Assembly: GCA_963681505.1 (NCBI GenBank)
Contig: OY811975.1
Span: forward strand, 6,935,490 to 6,999,489
DNA: 64,000 nt
Direction of reading: 5' to 3'
Source: Eunapius fragilis
Lineage: Eukaryota > Porifera > Demospongiae > Spongillida > Spongillidae
Shown: piece after piece, positions 4,042 to 44,857 of the stretch
Position numbering within the stretch: position 1 is the stretch's first letter
Layout: every line of letters begins with the position of its first letter
Notes under the pieces: generated by a model
Seen by the model: only the letters and a program-made list of their open reading frames with translations
Databases searched by the model: none
Told to the model about the DNA's origin: nothing
Translations under genes and position numbers: made by a program

Positions 4042-4395
4042 ATGCCTTCACGTCAGGACAAGAAGAAAGCCAAACTACGGGCAAAGTATCTCAAAACTAG
4101 AGACGATGTATTAGATTCAGCCCGAGCGGAACTATACAAAGCAGAGCCTGAAAAGAAACGGGCCTCTCAACGTGAAAACTATCGAGCAAATCCCGAAAAG
4201 GAACGGACCTCTCGACTTGCAAGGTATCGAGCAGATCCTGAAAAGGAATGGGCTGCTAAAAGACAGCAATATTGCCATAGTCCTGAACGTTCGTCTCGCT
4301 CGGTGAAAAGAGTTAATGTCACTCAAAGGTATGTCGTACGTTCACAACCTCCCTTTCACATCAAGATGGATTACTTAACATGCTACGGCTCATAA
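4042..4395 (+). CDS. Small basic protein with four 15-residue YRANPEK-type repeats
   Basis: The 117-codon ORF begins with MPSRQDKKKAKLRAKYLKTR and then has four tandem 15-residue units at about residues 31-90. Each is built on a Y-x-A-x/D-PEK core (YKAEPEKKR, YRANPEKER, YRADPEKEW, YCHSPERSS). The ATG is the first in frame after an upstream stop. It is highly charged, with no signal peptide or membrane segment. From memory, similar repeats occur in predicted sponge and cnidarian proteins near transposon-type domains. Here there is no such domain, so it may be the 5' exon or fragment of a longer protein. A decayed copy of the same repeat lies at about 38,560-38,645, again just after a family D repeat, which argues for a mobile origin. 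A MITE follows at once. Confidence 0.5.
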   Translation: MPSRQDKKKAKLRAKYLKTRDDVLDSARAELYKAEPEKKRASQRENYRANPEKERTSRLARYRADPEKEWAAKRQQYCHSPERSSRSVKRVNVTQRYVVRSQPPFHIKMDYLTCYGS

Positions 4396-5289: not shown

Positions 5290-8200
5290 ATTATTCTTCA
5301 CTGGGGATGGATGCCACCTCTGTATGTTCTAAAGCAGATCAGAACATTCTGACGACAATTCCCTGTTCCCACAGGGTAGGTATGTACATGTGAGGATGGG
5401 GAACCACACGCCATGCATAGTTCCCCAATGCCTGGCCAACTTGTGAGTGACCCCCAAATGAAATTATTCACACATCATCTTAACTGAAGATGGATGCCAC
5501 CTCTGTAAGGTCTAAAGCGGATCCAGACATTCTGATGACAGTTCCATGTTCCCACAGGGGAGCTGAGTACATGTGAGGATGGGGAACCCAATGCCACGCG
5601 TAGATCCCTAATGCCTGGCCAACTTGTGAGTGACCCCCAAATGAAATTATTCACACATCATCTTAACTGAAGATGGATGCCACCTCTGTAAGGTCTAAAG
5701 AGGATCCAGACATTCTGATGACAGTTTCCTATTCCCACAGGGTAGTTGTATACATGTGAGGGTGGGGAACCCAATGCCACACGTAGTTCCCTAATGCCTG
5801 GCCAACCTGTGAGTGAACCCCAAATGAAATTATTAACATATCAACTTCACTGATAATGGATGCTGCCTCTGTAAGTGAAAAAGTGGATCCAGACATTCTG
5901 ATGACAGTTCCCTGTTTCCACAGGGTAGGTGAGTACATGTGAGGATGGGGAACCCAATGCCACGCGTAGATCCCTAATGCCTGGCCAACCTGTGAGTGAA
6001 CCCCAAATGAAATTATTAACATATCATCATAACTGAGAATGGATGCCACCTCTGTAGGTTCTAAAGCGGATCCAGACATTCTAATGTCAATTTCCTGTTC
6101 CCACAGGGTAGTTGTGTACGTGTGAGGATGGGGAACCCAACGCCATGCGTAGATCTCAAATGCCTGGCCAACTTGTGAGTGACCCCCAAATGAAATTATT
6201 CACTTATCATCATAACGAAGATGGATGCCACCTCTGTAAGTTCTAAAGCAGATCCAGACATTCTGATGACAGTTTCATGTTCCCACAGGGGAGGTGAGTA
6301 AATTAGAGGATGGGGAACCCAACGCCACGCGTAGTTGCTCAATGCCTGGCCAACTTGTGAGTGAACCTCAAATGAAATTATTCACATATTATCTTAACAG
6401 AAGATGGATGCCACCTCTGTAAGTTCTAAAGCAGATCCAGACATTCTGATGACAATTTCCTGTTCCCACAGGGTAGTTGTGTACATGTGAGGATGGGGAA
6501 CCCAACGCCACGCGTAGTTCCCCAATGCCTGGCAAACTTGTGAGTGAACCCCAAATGAAATTATTCACATATGGGACAGTGTCCAGCAGAATCACCCTTC
6601 TGGCTAGTTTTTCAAGTTTTCAAATTTTTTGATTTTCCTTGAACACTCATGAGCTTCTGTCAAATGGTCCTTACGCATCCTAAATCGGACTATCCATCAC
6701 AAAGTTATTGGGCACTGAATTTATAATTAACCATACATTTCAATGCGAGCGTTACTTTTCTTTTGCTTGTTCTGGAAATTTTGAAAAAGTACCATAAGGG
6801 TGATGTAGCTGGACACTGTCCCATATCATCTTAACTGAAGATGGATGCCACCTCTGTAAGTTCTAAATTGGATCTAGACATTCTGATGACAGTTCCATGT
6901 TCCCACAGGGTAGGTGTGTACATGTGAAGATGGGGAACCCAAAGTCACGCGTAGATCCCAAATGTCTGGCCAACCTGTGAGTGAACCCCAATGGAAATTA
7001 TTCACATATCATCATAACTGAAGATGGGATGCCACCTCTGTAAGTTCTAAAGCGGATCCAGACATTCTGATGACAGTTCCATGTTCCCACAGGGGAGGTG
7101 AGTACATGTGAGGACGGGGAACCCAACGCCACGCGTACCTAATGCCTGGCCAACTTGTGAGTGACCCCCAAATGAAATTATTCACATTTTATCTTAACAG
7201 AAGATGGATGCCACCTCTGTAAGTTCTAAAGCAGATCCAGACATTCTGATGGCAATTTCCTGTTCCCACAGGGTAGTTGTGGTCTAGTGAGGATGGGGAA
7301 CCCAACGCCACGCGTAGTTCCCCAATGCCTGGCCAACTTGTGAGTGACCCCCAAATGAAATTATTCACAAAATTATTCACTTAGCATCTTAACTGAAAAT
7401 GGATGCCGCCTCTGTAAGTTTTAAAGTGGATCTAGACATTCTGATGACAGTTCCCTGTTCCCACAGGGTAGTTGAGTACATGTGAGGATGGGGAACCCAA
7501 CGCCACACGTAGATCCCAAATGCCAGGTCAACCTGTGAGTGAACCCCAAATGAAATTATTCACATATCATCGTAACTGAAGATGGATGCCACCTCTGTAA
7601 GTTCTAAAGCGGATCCATGCAGACATTCTGATGACAGTTCCATGTTTCCACAGGGTAGATGTGTATGTGTGCGGATGGGGAACCCAACACCACGCGTATT
7701 TCCTTAATGCTTGGCCAACCTGTGAGTGAACCCAAAATGAAATTATTAACATATCAACTTCACTGAAGATGGATGCCGCCTCTGTAAGTACTAAAGTGGA
7801 TCAAGACATTCTGATGACAATTCCCTGTTCCAACTGGGTAGGTAAGTATATGTGCGGATGGGGAACCCAATGCCACGCGTAGATCCCAAATGCCTGGACA
7901 ACCTGTGAGTGAACCCCAAATAAAATTATTCACATATCCTCATAACTGAAGATGGATGCCACCTCTGTAAGGTCTAAAGCGGATCCAGACATTTTGATGA
8001 CAGTTCCCTTTTCCCAGAGAGTAGGCGTGTGCATGTGAAGATGGGGAACCCAACGCCACGCGTAGTTTCCAAATGCCTGGCCAACTTGTAAGGAACCTCA
8101 AATGAAATTATTCACACATCATGTTCACTGAAAATGGATGCCACCTCTGTAAGTTCTAAAGCAGATCCAGACATTCTGATGACAGTTCCAAATTTCCACA

Positions 8201-8365
8201 GGGGAGGTGAGTACATGTGAGGATGGGGAACCCAACGCCACGCGTAGTTCCCAAATGCCTGGCCACCCTGTGAGTGAACCCCAAAGGAAATTATTAACAT
8301 ATCATCTTCACTGAAGATGGACGCCACCTCTGTAATTTCTAAAGCAGATCCATACATTCTGTTCT
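5290..8365. repeat. Tandem satellite, ~184-bp unit, about 16 copies, orientation A
   Basis: The unit carries GATGGATGCCACCTCTGTAA, GGATCCAGACATTCTGATGA, GTTCCCACAGGG, GAGGATGGGGAACCCAA, TGCCTGGCCAACTTGTGAG and CAAATGAAATTATTCACA in that order. Starts of successive units (5306, 5491, 5671, 5857, 6039 and on) are about 180-187 bp apart. Copies differ by perhaps 5-15 percent. A 252-bp MITE sits at 6572-6823. Minus-strand ORFs of 60-116 codons inside it are side effects of the repeat: the unit length is not a multiple of three and the reading frame drifts. The same satellite recurs inverted at 13,195-14,515. Confidence 0.95.
6572..6823. mobile_element. 252-bp MITE with 32-bp TIRs and TA target duplication
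   Basis: The left TIR begins TGGGACAGTGTCCAGC and includes ATCACCCTT. The right end (about 6792-6823) is its reverse complement with about four mismatches in 32. TA dinucleotides at 6570-6571 and 6824-6825 flank it, and removing the element plus one TA restores the satellite unit exactly (CACATATCATCTT as in its neighbours). TA duplication suggests mobilisation by a Tc1/mariner-type transposase. There is no ORF. Confidence 0.93.
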
Positions 8366-13004: not shown

Positions 13005-13194
13005 CACATGCTCCACATCAACACGAATCCAGGTTTTTAAAGCATAAACATGCACTGAAATGTATCATTGTTTTGCATATTCCAAATTATAATACATCGG
13101 TCTTGCAGCACCATTCAGATTACTTGGTTATCCTTAAAATCGTTGTCAAGTAGGCCATTGAAATGATGGTCCTAGGAAGGAGACAGCATCCAGG

Positions 13195-14515
13195 AACTAG
13201 CCATGGCATAGTGTTCCCCATCCTCACATGTAAACACCTACCCTGTTGGAACAACGAACTGTCAGCAGGATGTGTGGATCTGCTTTAGAACATACAGACG
13301 TGGCATCCATCTTCTGTGAAGATGAGATGGGAATAATTTCATTTGGGGGTCACTCACAAGTTGGTCAGGCATTGGGGAACTACGTGTGGTGTTGGGTTCC
13401 CTATCCTCACATGTGCACACTTTCCCTGTGGGAACAGGGAATTGTCATCAGAATGTCTGGATCTGCTTTAGAAATTAACAAAGGGTGGCATCCATCGTCA
13501 GTGAAGATTATATGTGAATAATTTCATTTGGAGGTTACACGTTGGTCAGGCATTGGGGAATTACGCATGACGTTGGGTTCCCCATCCCCACATGTACACA
13601 CCTACCCTGTGGGAACAGGGAACTGTCATCAGAATGTCTCAATCTGCTTTAGTACTTACAGAGGTGGCATCCATCGTCAGTGAAGTTTATTTGTGATAAA
13701 CTTCATTTGAGGTTCCTCACAAATTGGCTAGGCATATGGGAACTACGCGTGGCATTGGGTTCCCCATCCTCACATGTACTCACCTACCCTGTGGGAACAG
13801 GGAACCGTCATCAGAATGTATGGATATTCTTTAGAACTAAGAGGTGGCATCCATCTTCAATGAAGATGATAAGTGAATAATTTCATTTGGGGGTCGCAAG
13901 TTGGTCAGGCATTGGGAAACTATGCATGGTATTGGGTCACCCATCTTCACATGTACACACCTACCCTGTAGGAACAGGGAATTGTCATCAGAATGTATCG
14001 ATCTGCTTTAGTTAGAGGTGGCATCCATCTTTAGTGAAAATGATATGTGAATAATTGTATTTGGGGGTTACTCACAAGCATTGGGGAACTACGCGTGGTA
14101 TTGGGTTCTCAATCCTTACATGTACACACCTACCCTGTGAGAACAGGGAACTGTCATCAGAATGTCTGGATCTGCTTTAGAACTTACATACGTTGCATCC
14201 ATCATCAGTGAAGATATGTGAATTATTGCATTGGGGGTCACTCATAAGTTAGTCAGGCATTGGGGAACTACGCGTGGCGTTGGGTTCCCAATCCTCACAT
14301 GTACATACCTACATTGTGGGAACAGGGAACTGTCATCAGAATGGCTGGATCTGCTTTCATAGGTGACATCCATTTTTAGTGAAGATGATACACGTGAATA
14401 ATTTCATTTGCGGGGTCACTAACTTGTCAGTCAGGCATTGGGGAGCTACGTGGGGCGTTGGGTCCCCCATCCTGACATGTGTACACCTACCCTGTGGGAG
14501 CAGGGAACTGTCATA
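13195..14515. repeat. Tandem satellite, ~184-bp unit, about 7 copies, opposite orientation
   Basis: Reverse complement of the 5290-8365 unit: CCCCATCCTCACATGT, CCTGTGGGAACAGGGAA, CATCAGAATGTCTGGATC, GTGGCATCCATC and AATAATTTCATTTG recur about every 165-190 bp. More degenerate than the left block and ends abruptly after CCTACCCTGTGGGAGCAGGG. Plus-strand ORFs within it are repeat artefacts. Confidence 0.93.
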
Positions 14516-42520: not shown

Positions 42521-42608
42521 ATAGATGATTTCGGTGTGAAGTCGTTCCCCTGGAAACGCGTGACCTAAAACGATGAATAATTGATGTGGAGGGCAACATA
42601 TACATGAA

Positions 42609-42998
42609 ATGGTATTGAGTTGTTGTGCTTTTGGCTGTACAAATCGTGGTGGTCAGCGTTTGGGCCTAGGTTTCCATCGGTTTCCATTCAAAAATGAAGG
42701 CAGACTACGAAGGTGGATTCAAGCGGTCCGTAGAGAGGATTGGCAGCCTTCGAAGTACTGCGAATCTGTGGCGACCATTTTTTGTCAGGTTAGTTACAAG
42801 TGTGGAAGTCACAATTGAGTGAGGGAGTCATTTGTTTTTATTATAGGCAAGCCTGTTGACGAACCCAGTAACGCGGACTATGCCCCTACACTATTCCCCT
42901 TCAAGGATGCCAAGAGGAAGGATGCGATGGCAATGAAAGCGCGGAAGACAAGAGCGGAGCACAGAAGAAAGATGATCGAAGCTGAAGAAAGCGAATAG
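42609..42998 (+). pseudogene. THAP zinc-finger protein, N-terminal, two exons with one frameshift
   Basis: Exon 1 (42,609-42,788) reads CCAFGC at the start and FHRFPFKNEGRLRRWIQAVR, the first half of a THAP C2CH DNA-binding domain. RICGDHF, with the last Cys and His, appears in another frame, so one base is missing near 42,758. A GTTAGT donor follows. After a 58-nt intron (acceptor TTATTATAG) exon 2 (42,847-42,998) reads KPVDEPSNADYAPTLFPF, the conserved THAP tail, then a basic helical stretch and a stop. THAP domains bind DNA and occur in P and Kolobok transposases. Here it is only the DNA-binding module. Confidence 0.8.
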
Positions 42999-43064
42999 GA
43001 GAGGCGTTCTTCAGCTTTAGAGGGTCATCGTGCGTGCACTCTTGGGAAAAGAAGCTTAACTTAC

Positions 43065-43480
43065 CCTGCCATGCAAGTGCAGTGGGCGGACGCGACCAAG
43101 CCAGATGACCGCGCAATGATCCACGCTTCGTGGGCCTGGTCTGCAGTGCGTTGACTAGGGTTAACGTTGGCTTTTAACAAACAGCACTTTTGGTACCCTT
43201 GGCCGAACCCCGTTGCAAACACAGTCCTCACGAAGCCCGATTCAAAGTTGTTGTAGGCATCAAGTTGCTTCCAAGATAACAGCTGCTCTTGACTATAAGT
43301 TCCCGGGCGATTGATGAAATAGCCAAAGGTATGGCCATACTCTATACGCGGCCACAACGTCATATCGTCGCTGAAACGATGATCGTTATCCTTCATGAAA
43401 GGGTCATCACTTAGTGTCAGCCCTACCGACTCTAGTTTTTGCTTGTAATGCTCCTTTTCGCTTGCAATCTGCCCATCCAT
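43065..43480 (-). pseudogene. SWIM-type / YqaJ-associated protein, 5' exon
   Basis: Minus-strand frame from ATG at 43,480 (MDGQIASEKEHYKQKLE). Its C-terminal half reads KANVNPSQRTADQAHEAW and ends AHCTCMAG, the first half of a SWIM zinc finger (CxC…CxH). It stops exactly at a consensus donor (GG|GTAAGTT, exon end 43,065), so the protein should continue in a further exon with the rest of SWIM and, in the relatives I remember, a YqaJ-like nuclease domain. That exon is absent: THAP exon 2 lies there instead. Confidence 0.7.
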
Positions 43481-43571
43481 TACAATTTACCATACGTCTC
43501 TATAATGTTTTGCCCTCCAAAGAATTTTCACGTGACTTTCACGTGACGCGCGGTTTCACACCGAAATCACC

Positions 43572-44857
43572 TTTCTAGGTTTGAGTGCTCTACTCCGAGC
43601 CTTTGGTACTAAACTGTGCGCAATAGATAGAAATTACTCATAAGGTAAACTGCCATATTAGAACAGGTTGGCCTTATTGGAACAGGGGAGGGGGGGGGGG
43701 GGGGGTCAGAATAACCGCAGCCTATAACCACAGTTGATAATACCCTTTAGCGAACTACGCCCCTAAGTAGCTAATTTGTTTTCACGTACGTACAAAAGCT
43801 AGTTAGTAAACCTCTTATTTCTTGGAGGCCAAGCGTGGAAGAAATGGCTGGCAACGAAAGGGAAAGAGCCTATCCCAGTTAATAGTAAAGATGTCACGAT
43901 GGACTTATGTAAACGATATCGCTCCACAGAACCGACCCGTTTTTGGGGTCAAAGGAAGTAGACCTAGCATTTGGTAAATGTAGAGCCAAACTGCAGTGCC
44001 CAGGACACGTCACCACTGATCTGAACGCCATAAAAATCATAGCCGATTCAGATTGTGTACCCGATATACGCGCATCTATCAATAATTTTCCAATAGTATT
44101 TATTACAATAATTAGACTAAGTATAGGTAAACAAGTTTTGTTTTGCTGAATTCCAGCGATTCTCAGGGGGCTGTAGAAGAGGTAGGGATTTGAAACTCAT
44201 TCTTTCTTGCGTAGATTTGTGTTATAACCGTAATTTAGCGATGCCAATTTCCACCATGCAAGCTATGGCTCATTTAGTACTCACTTCCGGTAATTTTCAA
44301 TGGAGGTCACGAAGCCTCTCTTTGACTTGAAGTAGCTCTTCCGCGTAACCACTTATAGCAAAGTTTTAAGCTTAAAATCGATGTCTCATGACTCATGAAT
44401 AGAAAGATGGGGAAAAGGAGGGCTATTGCTAGCTCTTGCAATGCATGGCGTTTTTAAAATCACTACCCCTCGAACTAACAGAATGTGACATAGTTTAGGT
44501 ACTTTCACATCATTTCACGTAATGTACTTCCGCATATCCAAATATCTGCAGTAAAAATTGTGACTGGTTTATACGAAGGTTAAGAGAGGTAGGTATTTTT
44601 GAAAATCTAGTTCTCGATAGTTTAAAGACGATAATACTTCAAATTTGCCTGGATCATGAAGCTTTGAGCGCTCTTTCACGCAGTATTGTATCTAACATCG
44701 TACGCAATATCTAAATTAAGGATGTACTGCTTTTTAATTAGAGTAAAAAGTCAACGTTGTTTATTGTACTCTTCCAATGACGGGTCCTCCTCGCAAATGT
44801 CAAAAAACGTTGCAGGCAAGCAATTTCTATCTACCTTGTAACTTTTAGGACGATCTG
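43572..44857. other. No supported gene
   Basis: Contains a 16-nt G run at 43,690-43,705. A short block at 43,643-43,669 (GGTAAACTGCCATATTAGAA) recurs inverted at 53,017-53,043. ORFs at 43,894-44,149 are unrecognised. Confidence 0.5.

Follow-up and report, generated by a model that had tools for sequence, protein, structure and literature searches.

A mobile 1-kb element with two truncated, converging genes in the sponge Eunapius fragilis, a probable internally deleted ISL2EU-type DNA transposon

ISL2EU is a group of the PHIS (PIF/Harbinger-like) superfamily that, according to the available text of PMC4482050, occurs in animals only, duplicates AT within the target A|AT|T, and has ends that usually start with GG. 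One of its genes codes for a protein with DDE, HTH, and THAP parts and the other for a YqaJ protein, the role of which is called unknown in the same source. The gene content is described alike in the accessible part of PMC9179366, according to which ISL2EU activity had yet to be proved. The PIF/Harbinger elements, as characterized in the available text of PMC4482050, have a TWA target-site duplication and a second gene of the Myb/SANT type, while the duplication given for Kolobok in the accessible part of PMC9587614 is TTAA. PMC4482050, a survey from 2015, lists the PHIS superfamily, as far as its available text goes, as absent from sponges.

The window analyzed here is a stretch of 64,000 nucleotides from contig OY811975.1 of the sponge Eunapius fragilis. 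A comparison of copy ends throughout the genome showed that the element occupies positions 42523-43572 of the window (1050 bp), and the limits 42524..43571 given in the original prediction were therefore one base short on each side. The left terminal inverted repeat, AGATGATTTCGGTGTGAA (42523..42540, plus strand), is identical to the 18-bp ends of other copies, and the right one (43555..43572, minus strand) differs from it by one mismatch (17/18 identical). The perfect 15-bp inverted ends reported in the prediction around two inward-facing gene starts are indeed present (42526-42540 and 43555-43569) and form the inner part of the 18-bp ends. A rough estimate assuming equal base frequencies gave 0.002 chance 15-mer inverted pairs in 2.2 kb; for pairs spanning up to 2 kb anywhere in the window, the figure was 0.12. 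The point is settled by the genome-wide copies, which show that the inverted ends are real and not due to chance.

Inside the element, the start of a THAP gene (plus strand) and that of a SWIM-like gene (minus strand) converge, leaving a gap of ~50 bp (43010-43059). The left gene begins with an ATG at 42609 and matches the THAP domain of Pfam (PF05485, E 2.2e-9 and 7.5e-10). Its first exon (42609..42788, plus strand), corresponding to the N-terminus of a transposase, ends at a splice donor and is followed by a GT..AG intron (42789..42846, plus strand), located as in L045, a complete relative from the same genome. The start of the second exon (42847..43010, plus strand) contains a stop codon at 42996-42998 in the window copy; its end is approximate and was placed where the homology to L045 appears to fade, at ~43010. 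The right gene has its ATG at 43480 and stays open on the minus strand up to the donor GTAAG (43060..43064), which matches the donor of L045. This exon of 416 bp (43065..43480, minus strand) shares 71% protein identity with L045 over 139 aa, and the YqaJ and PHD parts that follow in the relative are gone. The junction of an internal deletion probably lies within 43010..43059, as ~2.5 kb of both genes is absent in comparison with L045. The proper splice sites predicted for the two genes agree with those of a complete relative. The THAP exon 1 of the window copy is frame-broken and aligns to L045 in two frames. The label "SWIM" stands for a CxC-x7-CxH motif read by eye and not for a Pfam assignment. 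The window fragment keeps only the first half of this motif (CxC), the complete one being found in a relative. No Pfam match to the SWIM domain was obtained for the window fragment (E up to 1) or for the intact 630-aa protein of the relative L043 (E up to 10), so the predicted SWIM gene stands as a motif but not as a Pfam domain.

For the examination of copy number, the 219-Mb assembly (24 contigs) was searched with the element. Matches were found at no fewer than 49 genome places, and at least 24 of the matches, the window copy counted, were at least 1000 bp long and 93-100% identical (in both counts, 40 of the 64 candidates were scored). The exact 15-bp end gave 24+24 matches in the genome, whereas its backward control gave 0 and 1. 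Meanwhile, the 18-bp end AGATGATTTCGGTGTGAA with two mismatches allowed gave 70 matches (46 exact) compared with 27 for the control, and its mismatched matches are weak evidence for this reason. Copies sharing the ends had been foreseen in the prediction, and the comparison of flanks in the 20 copies read revealed 11 distinct insertion sites; the remaining nine copies repeat three of these sites via larger duplications. The pairwise identity of the copies at the 11 sites is 95.4-98.9% (median 96.9%), and the alignment showed one common junction in all 20 copies read. The 24 end pairs, which were paired by hand, span 889-3395 bp, and 20 of them fall within 1038-1054 bp. We conclude that the 1-kb element family is mobile. 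A related mini-element was also seen at L033:1354-2774, with a partly tandem-duplicated SWIM side and two right-hand ends.

The target-site duplication, likewise anticipated, was identified from empty sites. The window copy is flanked by AT on the left (42521..42522) and by TT on the right (43573..43574) and so has no perfect duplication. When the 11 distinct sites were taken together with those of L031 and L032, AT was present on both sides at 8 of the 13, and the other five read AT/TT (the window copy), GG/AT, AT/TA, AT/unreadable, and CG/AT. The site shared by L006 and L012 falls in a host repeat, and L006, L011, and L012 read CTCTCAT-element-ATATCAAG. The flank identity indicated that L007 carries the same insertion, which gives four occupied copies with AT on both sides. 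The element-free paralogues of this site read CTCTCATATCAAG, with a single AT in eight of nine (L037, L049, L062-L067) and AA in the ninth (L045); at least 40 further element-free copies of the host repeat align uninterrupted across the insertion site. In the case of the L014 group, the joined flanks gave half matches only and no uninterrupted empty site. The target duplication is thus 2 bp, AT, as established by the empty sites. Its context at the eight sites with AT on both sides is T|AT|A in seven and C|AT|A in one, the right-hand A being present in all eight. The eight relatives L041-L048 have AT beside both ends in every case, preceded by T in 7/8 and followed by A in 6/8.

Several other observations concern the host sequence. 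The left flank of L008 is the host repeat of the L006/L012 site and its right flank is different, which suggests that this copy was rearranged once inserted or that its site is a hybrid. A 45-bp tandem unit at 4150-4253 of the window looks, by eye, like the start of the host repeat hit by L012, a repeat with no fewer than 40 near-identical genomic copies. The window also contains large arrays at 5295-8361 and 13193-14514 with periods of 183 and ~360 bp, which seem to be members of a single family lying on opposite strands. Silicateins are sponge proteins, and the 10 cathepsin-type exons read in this genome include four with the silicatein-like CGASYAF(AATG) (L055, L059, L060, L061) and four with CGSCW (L052, L053, L054, L056), neither being read for L057 and L058. 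The silicatein-like exons point to a probable siliceous sponge as the host.

Complete two-gene relatives are present in the same genome. One 3.6-kb element is represented by three copies (L045, L046, and L047) with 99.9% identity. The first gene of this family contains THAP, HTH_Tnp_4, and DDE_Tnp_4, and the gene facing it contains YqaJ (E 1.9e-21) and a weak PHD match. L043 represents a second family of 3.8 kb, with an open 532-aa THAP-HTH-DDE frame and a second open frame of 630 aa that combines the SWIM-like motif, YqaJ (E 3.1e-23), and PHD. The DDE_Tnp_4 matches in L045 and L043 have E values of 4e-48 and 1.5e-52. The YqaJ-like nuclease that the original prediction had expected in relatives is therefore confirmed. 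Both L043 proteins are matched over their full length by L044 (99.4-99.7%), and gaps in the transposase are present in L041 and L042. It should be noted that L041:2250-5069 is a deletion derivative of the L043 family in which most of the transposase is gone and the 630-aa SWIM-like/YqaJ/PHD frame is still open. Among the matches listed, a SWIM-gene start lies within 6 kb of at least 45 of the 97 transposase positions, converging with the transposase in 44 of these 45, and 52 positions have no such start within this distance.

The L045 family resembles the mini-element in gene order, in the places of the intron and donor, in the AT on both sides, and in the SWIM exon (71% protein identity). It differs from it in having complete genes, other terminal sequences, and copies that are nearly identical, so that it should be younger than the mini-element family. 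In general, the identity of 99.7-99.9% among copies of the relatives indicates that they moved recently. The ends of the L045 family begin with ACATAG... and differ from those of the mini-element; the terminal dinucleotide is AG in the mini-element and L041-L044 and AC in L045-L048. The complete relatives, with the same converging order of genes, support the proposal that the window element arose by internal deletion of a larger two-gene transposon.

The prediction had also envisaged a full-length version with identical ends, but none was present among the 24 end pairs. Searches with the exact end motif and with two mismatches, as well as with the transposase and YqaJ proteins, revealed no complete element having the mini-element ends. 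The 97 listed transposase positions all fall outside the 24 end pairs and more than 10 kb away from them, and no YqaJ was found inside these pairs among the matches listed. The nearest complete family is that of L045, which has different ends and the above-mentioned identity in the SWIM exon. Two longer end pairs, L031 (3.4 kb) and L032 (1.8 kb), were considered as fuller copies and rejected, as they are mini-elements with unrelated inserts. L051 (C1) was rejected as a parent because it is a rearranged relative.

The comparison with the described systems places the element closest to ISL2EU. The AT duplication, the short inverted ends, and the animal host are shared with this group. The combination of THAP, HTH, and DDE in one gene is found in L045 and L043, the window element keeping only THAP, and the YqaJ gene is likewise found in L045 and L043, its YqaJ part being deleted in the window element, which lacks most of both genes. 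The target T|AT|A differs from the published A|AT|T, but it is not treated as excluding ISL2EU, since the available text of PMC4482050 groups families by the duplication itself. Similarly, ends starting with AG or AC instead of GG are no ground for exclusion, because GG is described there as usual and not as a rule. The sponge host is also at odds with that source, which lists the superfamily as missing from sponges. PIF/Harbinger elements share a related DDE_Tnp_4 transposase and the two-gene organization, but they differ in the TWA duplication and in having Myb/SANT and not YqaJ as the second gene, and the TTAA of Kolobok was not observed here. As the THAP-HTH-DDE transposase, the YqaJ protein, and the AT duplication correspond to the published description within the parts available (PMC4482050, PMC9179366), we assign the feature, by domains and duplication, to non-autonomous, internally deleted DNA transposons of the ISL2EU type, with a probability of about 0.92.

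Common ends, one common deletion, and many copies without a transposase gene make the element similar to MITE-like deletion derivatives. However, gene starts are missing from most MITEs and are still recognizable in this mini-element. The presence of THAP genes among ordinary animal genes could suggest that two host genes simply converge here between chance repeats, but the 1-kb unit recurs at 11 separate insertion sites, and paralogues without it exist, which leaves no room for this explanation. The N-terminal THAP domain of the left gene would also be expected if the element had derived by deletion from a different superfamily with THAP, the P element or Kolobok. The P element duplicates 8 bp and Kolobok TTAA, against the 2-bp AT seen at the empty site, and the relatives match DDE_Tnp_4 with the strong E values given above; such an origin is hardly credible. 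The original prediction went further and suggested that THAP and SWIM/YqaJ proteins could define a mobile system not yet described. It is true that the two genes move as a pair flanked by inverted ends, and the PHD finger and SWIM-like motif are absent from the ISL2EU descriptions in the available text of PMC4482050 and PMC9179366. Nevertheless, the THAP gene encodes a DDE transposase, the second gene is a YqaJ gene, and this layout and the AT duplication are those of ISL2EU as published there, which makes a new system very improbable.

In the P element, transposition is repressed by KP deletion derivatives, and the mini-element might have been kept for a similar reason, with its truncated THAP protein acting as a repressor. 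In favor of such a role, the element still has the regions of both promoters and the DNA-binding THAP exon, and a single junction is common to all 20 copies read. For the 11 independent copies, the changes at codon positions 1/2/3 were 8/11/6 in THAP exon 1, 13/11/7 in THAP exon 2, and 21/24/29 in the SWIM exon, so that positions 1 and 2 are not spared. The changes per site in these exons (0.139, 0.204, and 0.178, respectively) are to be compared with 0.103 in the THAP intron, 0.212 in other internal non-coding sequence, and 0.083 in the ends. These copies gave no indication that the gene remnants are under coding constraint, the numbers being small, and the frame of the window copy is broken. 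We consider the repressor very improbable. Within the same small numbers, the pattern fits passengers, in which the ends matter and the gene remnants drift.

The ISL2EU-type origin of the mini-element can be outlined as follows. The parent would have carried two genes, one for a THAP-HTH-DDE transposase and, facing it, one for a SWIM-like/YqaJ/PHD protein. A loss of ~2.5 kb would have removed the catalytic part of the transposase and, from the second gene, its YqaJ and PHD parts, sparing the two ends and the starts of the two genes. As these gene starts persist with matching intron and donor places, the origin is most simply explained by internal deletion of such a parent, and we infer that a single deletion founded the family. 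The remnant of ~1 kb would then have been multiplied by a transposase supplied in trans, presumably by cut-and-paste. For this, the DDE transposase would bind the ends, excise the element, and insert it into TATA-like targets, where cuts made around the central AT would lead to its duplication. The second protein would take part in the transposition as well.

The YqaJ proteins ending in a PHD finger are encoded at L043:3499-5391 (minus strand) and L045:3629-4876 (minus strand) and in L048. The YqaJ part of the L043 protein matches lambda exonuclease (E 2.5e-6). Its C-terminus matches ING PHD fingers, which are its best solved relatives (ING4, E 1.4e-15), and PHD sequences are also present in L045 and L048 among the relatives examined (L041-L048). 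The histone mark read by ING PHD fingers is H3K4me3, and L043 presumably keeps the aromatic and methionine positions of the ING histone pocket. In the RAG system, a PHD finger is brought to RAG1 by RAG2. By analogy, we tentatively suggest, as a rather unlikely model, that the second protein may be a chromatin-guided exonuclease: through H3K4me3, its ING-type PHD finger would direct insertion by the T|AT|A-cutting transposase toward chromatin that is open and active, YqaJ would process donor or target ends, and the mini-elements would be passengers of a two-protein machine in sponges. The guiding role of the PHD finger in target choice is a guess.

The available text of PMC4482050 and PMC9179366 makes no mention of a PHD finger and SWIM-like motif on the second ISL2EU protein, and no ISL2EU with a "PHD finger" was found in the open-access literature. 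A search of the same open-access literature also revealed no report of ISL2EU in a sponge. Neither of these two descriptions, as far as its available text goes, includes a sponge host, an exonuclease protein with an ING-type PHD finger, or the target T|AT|A in place of A|AT|T.

The sponge genome studied here contains ISL2EU-type elements, including recently moved copies, and the 2015 survey, in its available text, lists the superfamily as absent from sponges (PMC4482050). The ING-type PHD finger on the YqaJ protein provides a concrete, testable idea on target choice. The main interest lies in the intact relatives, in which the transposase is accompanied by an enzyme that degrades DNA and bears a chromatin-reading module.
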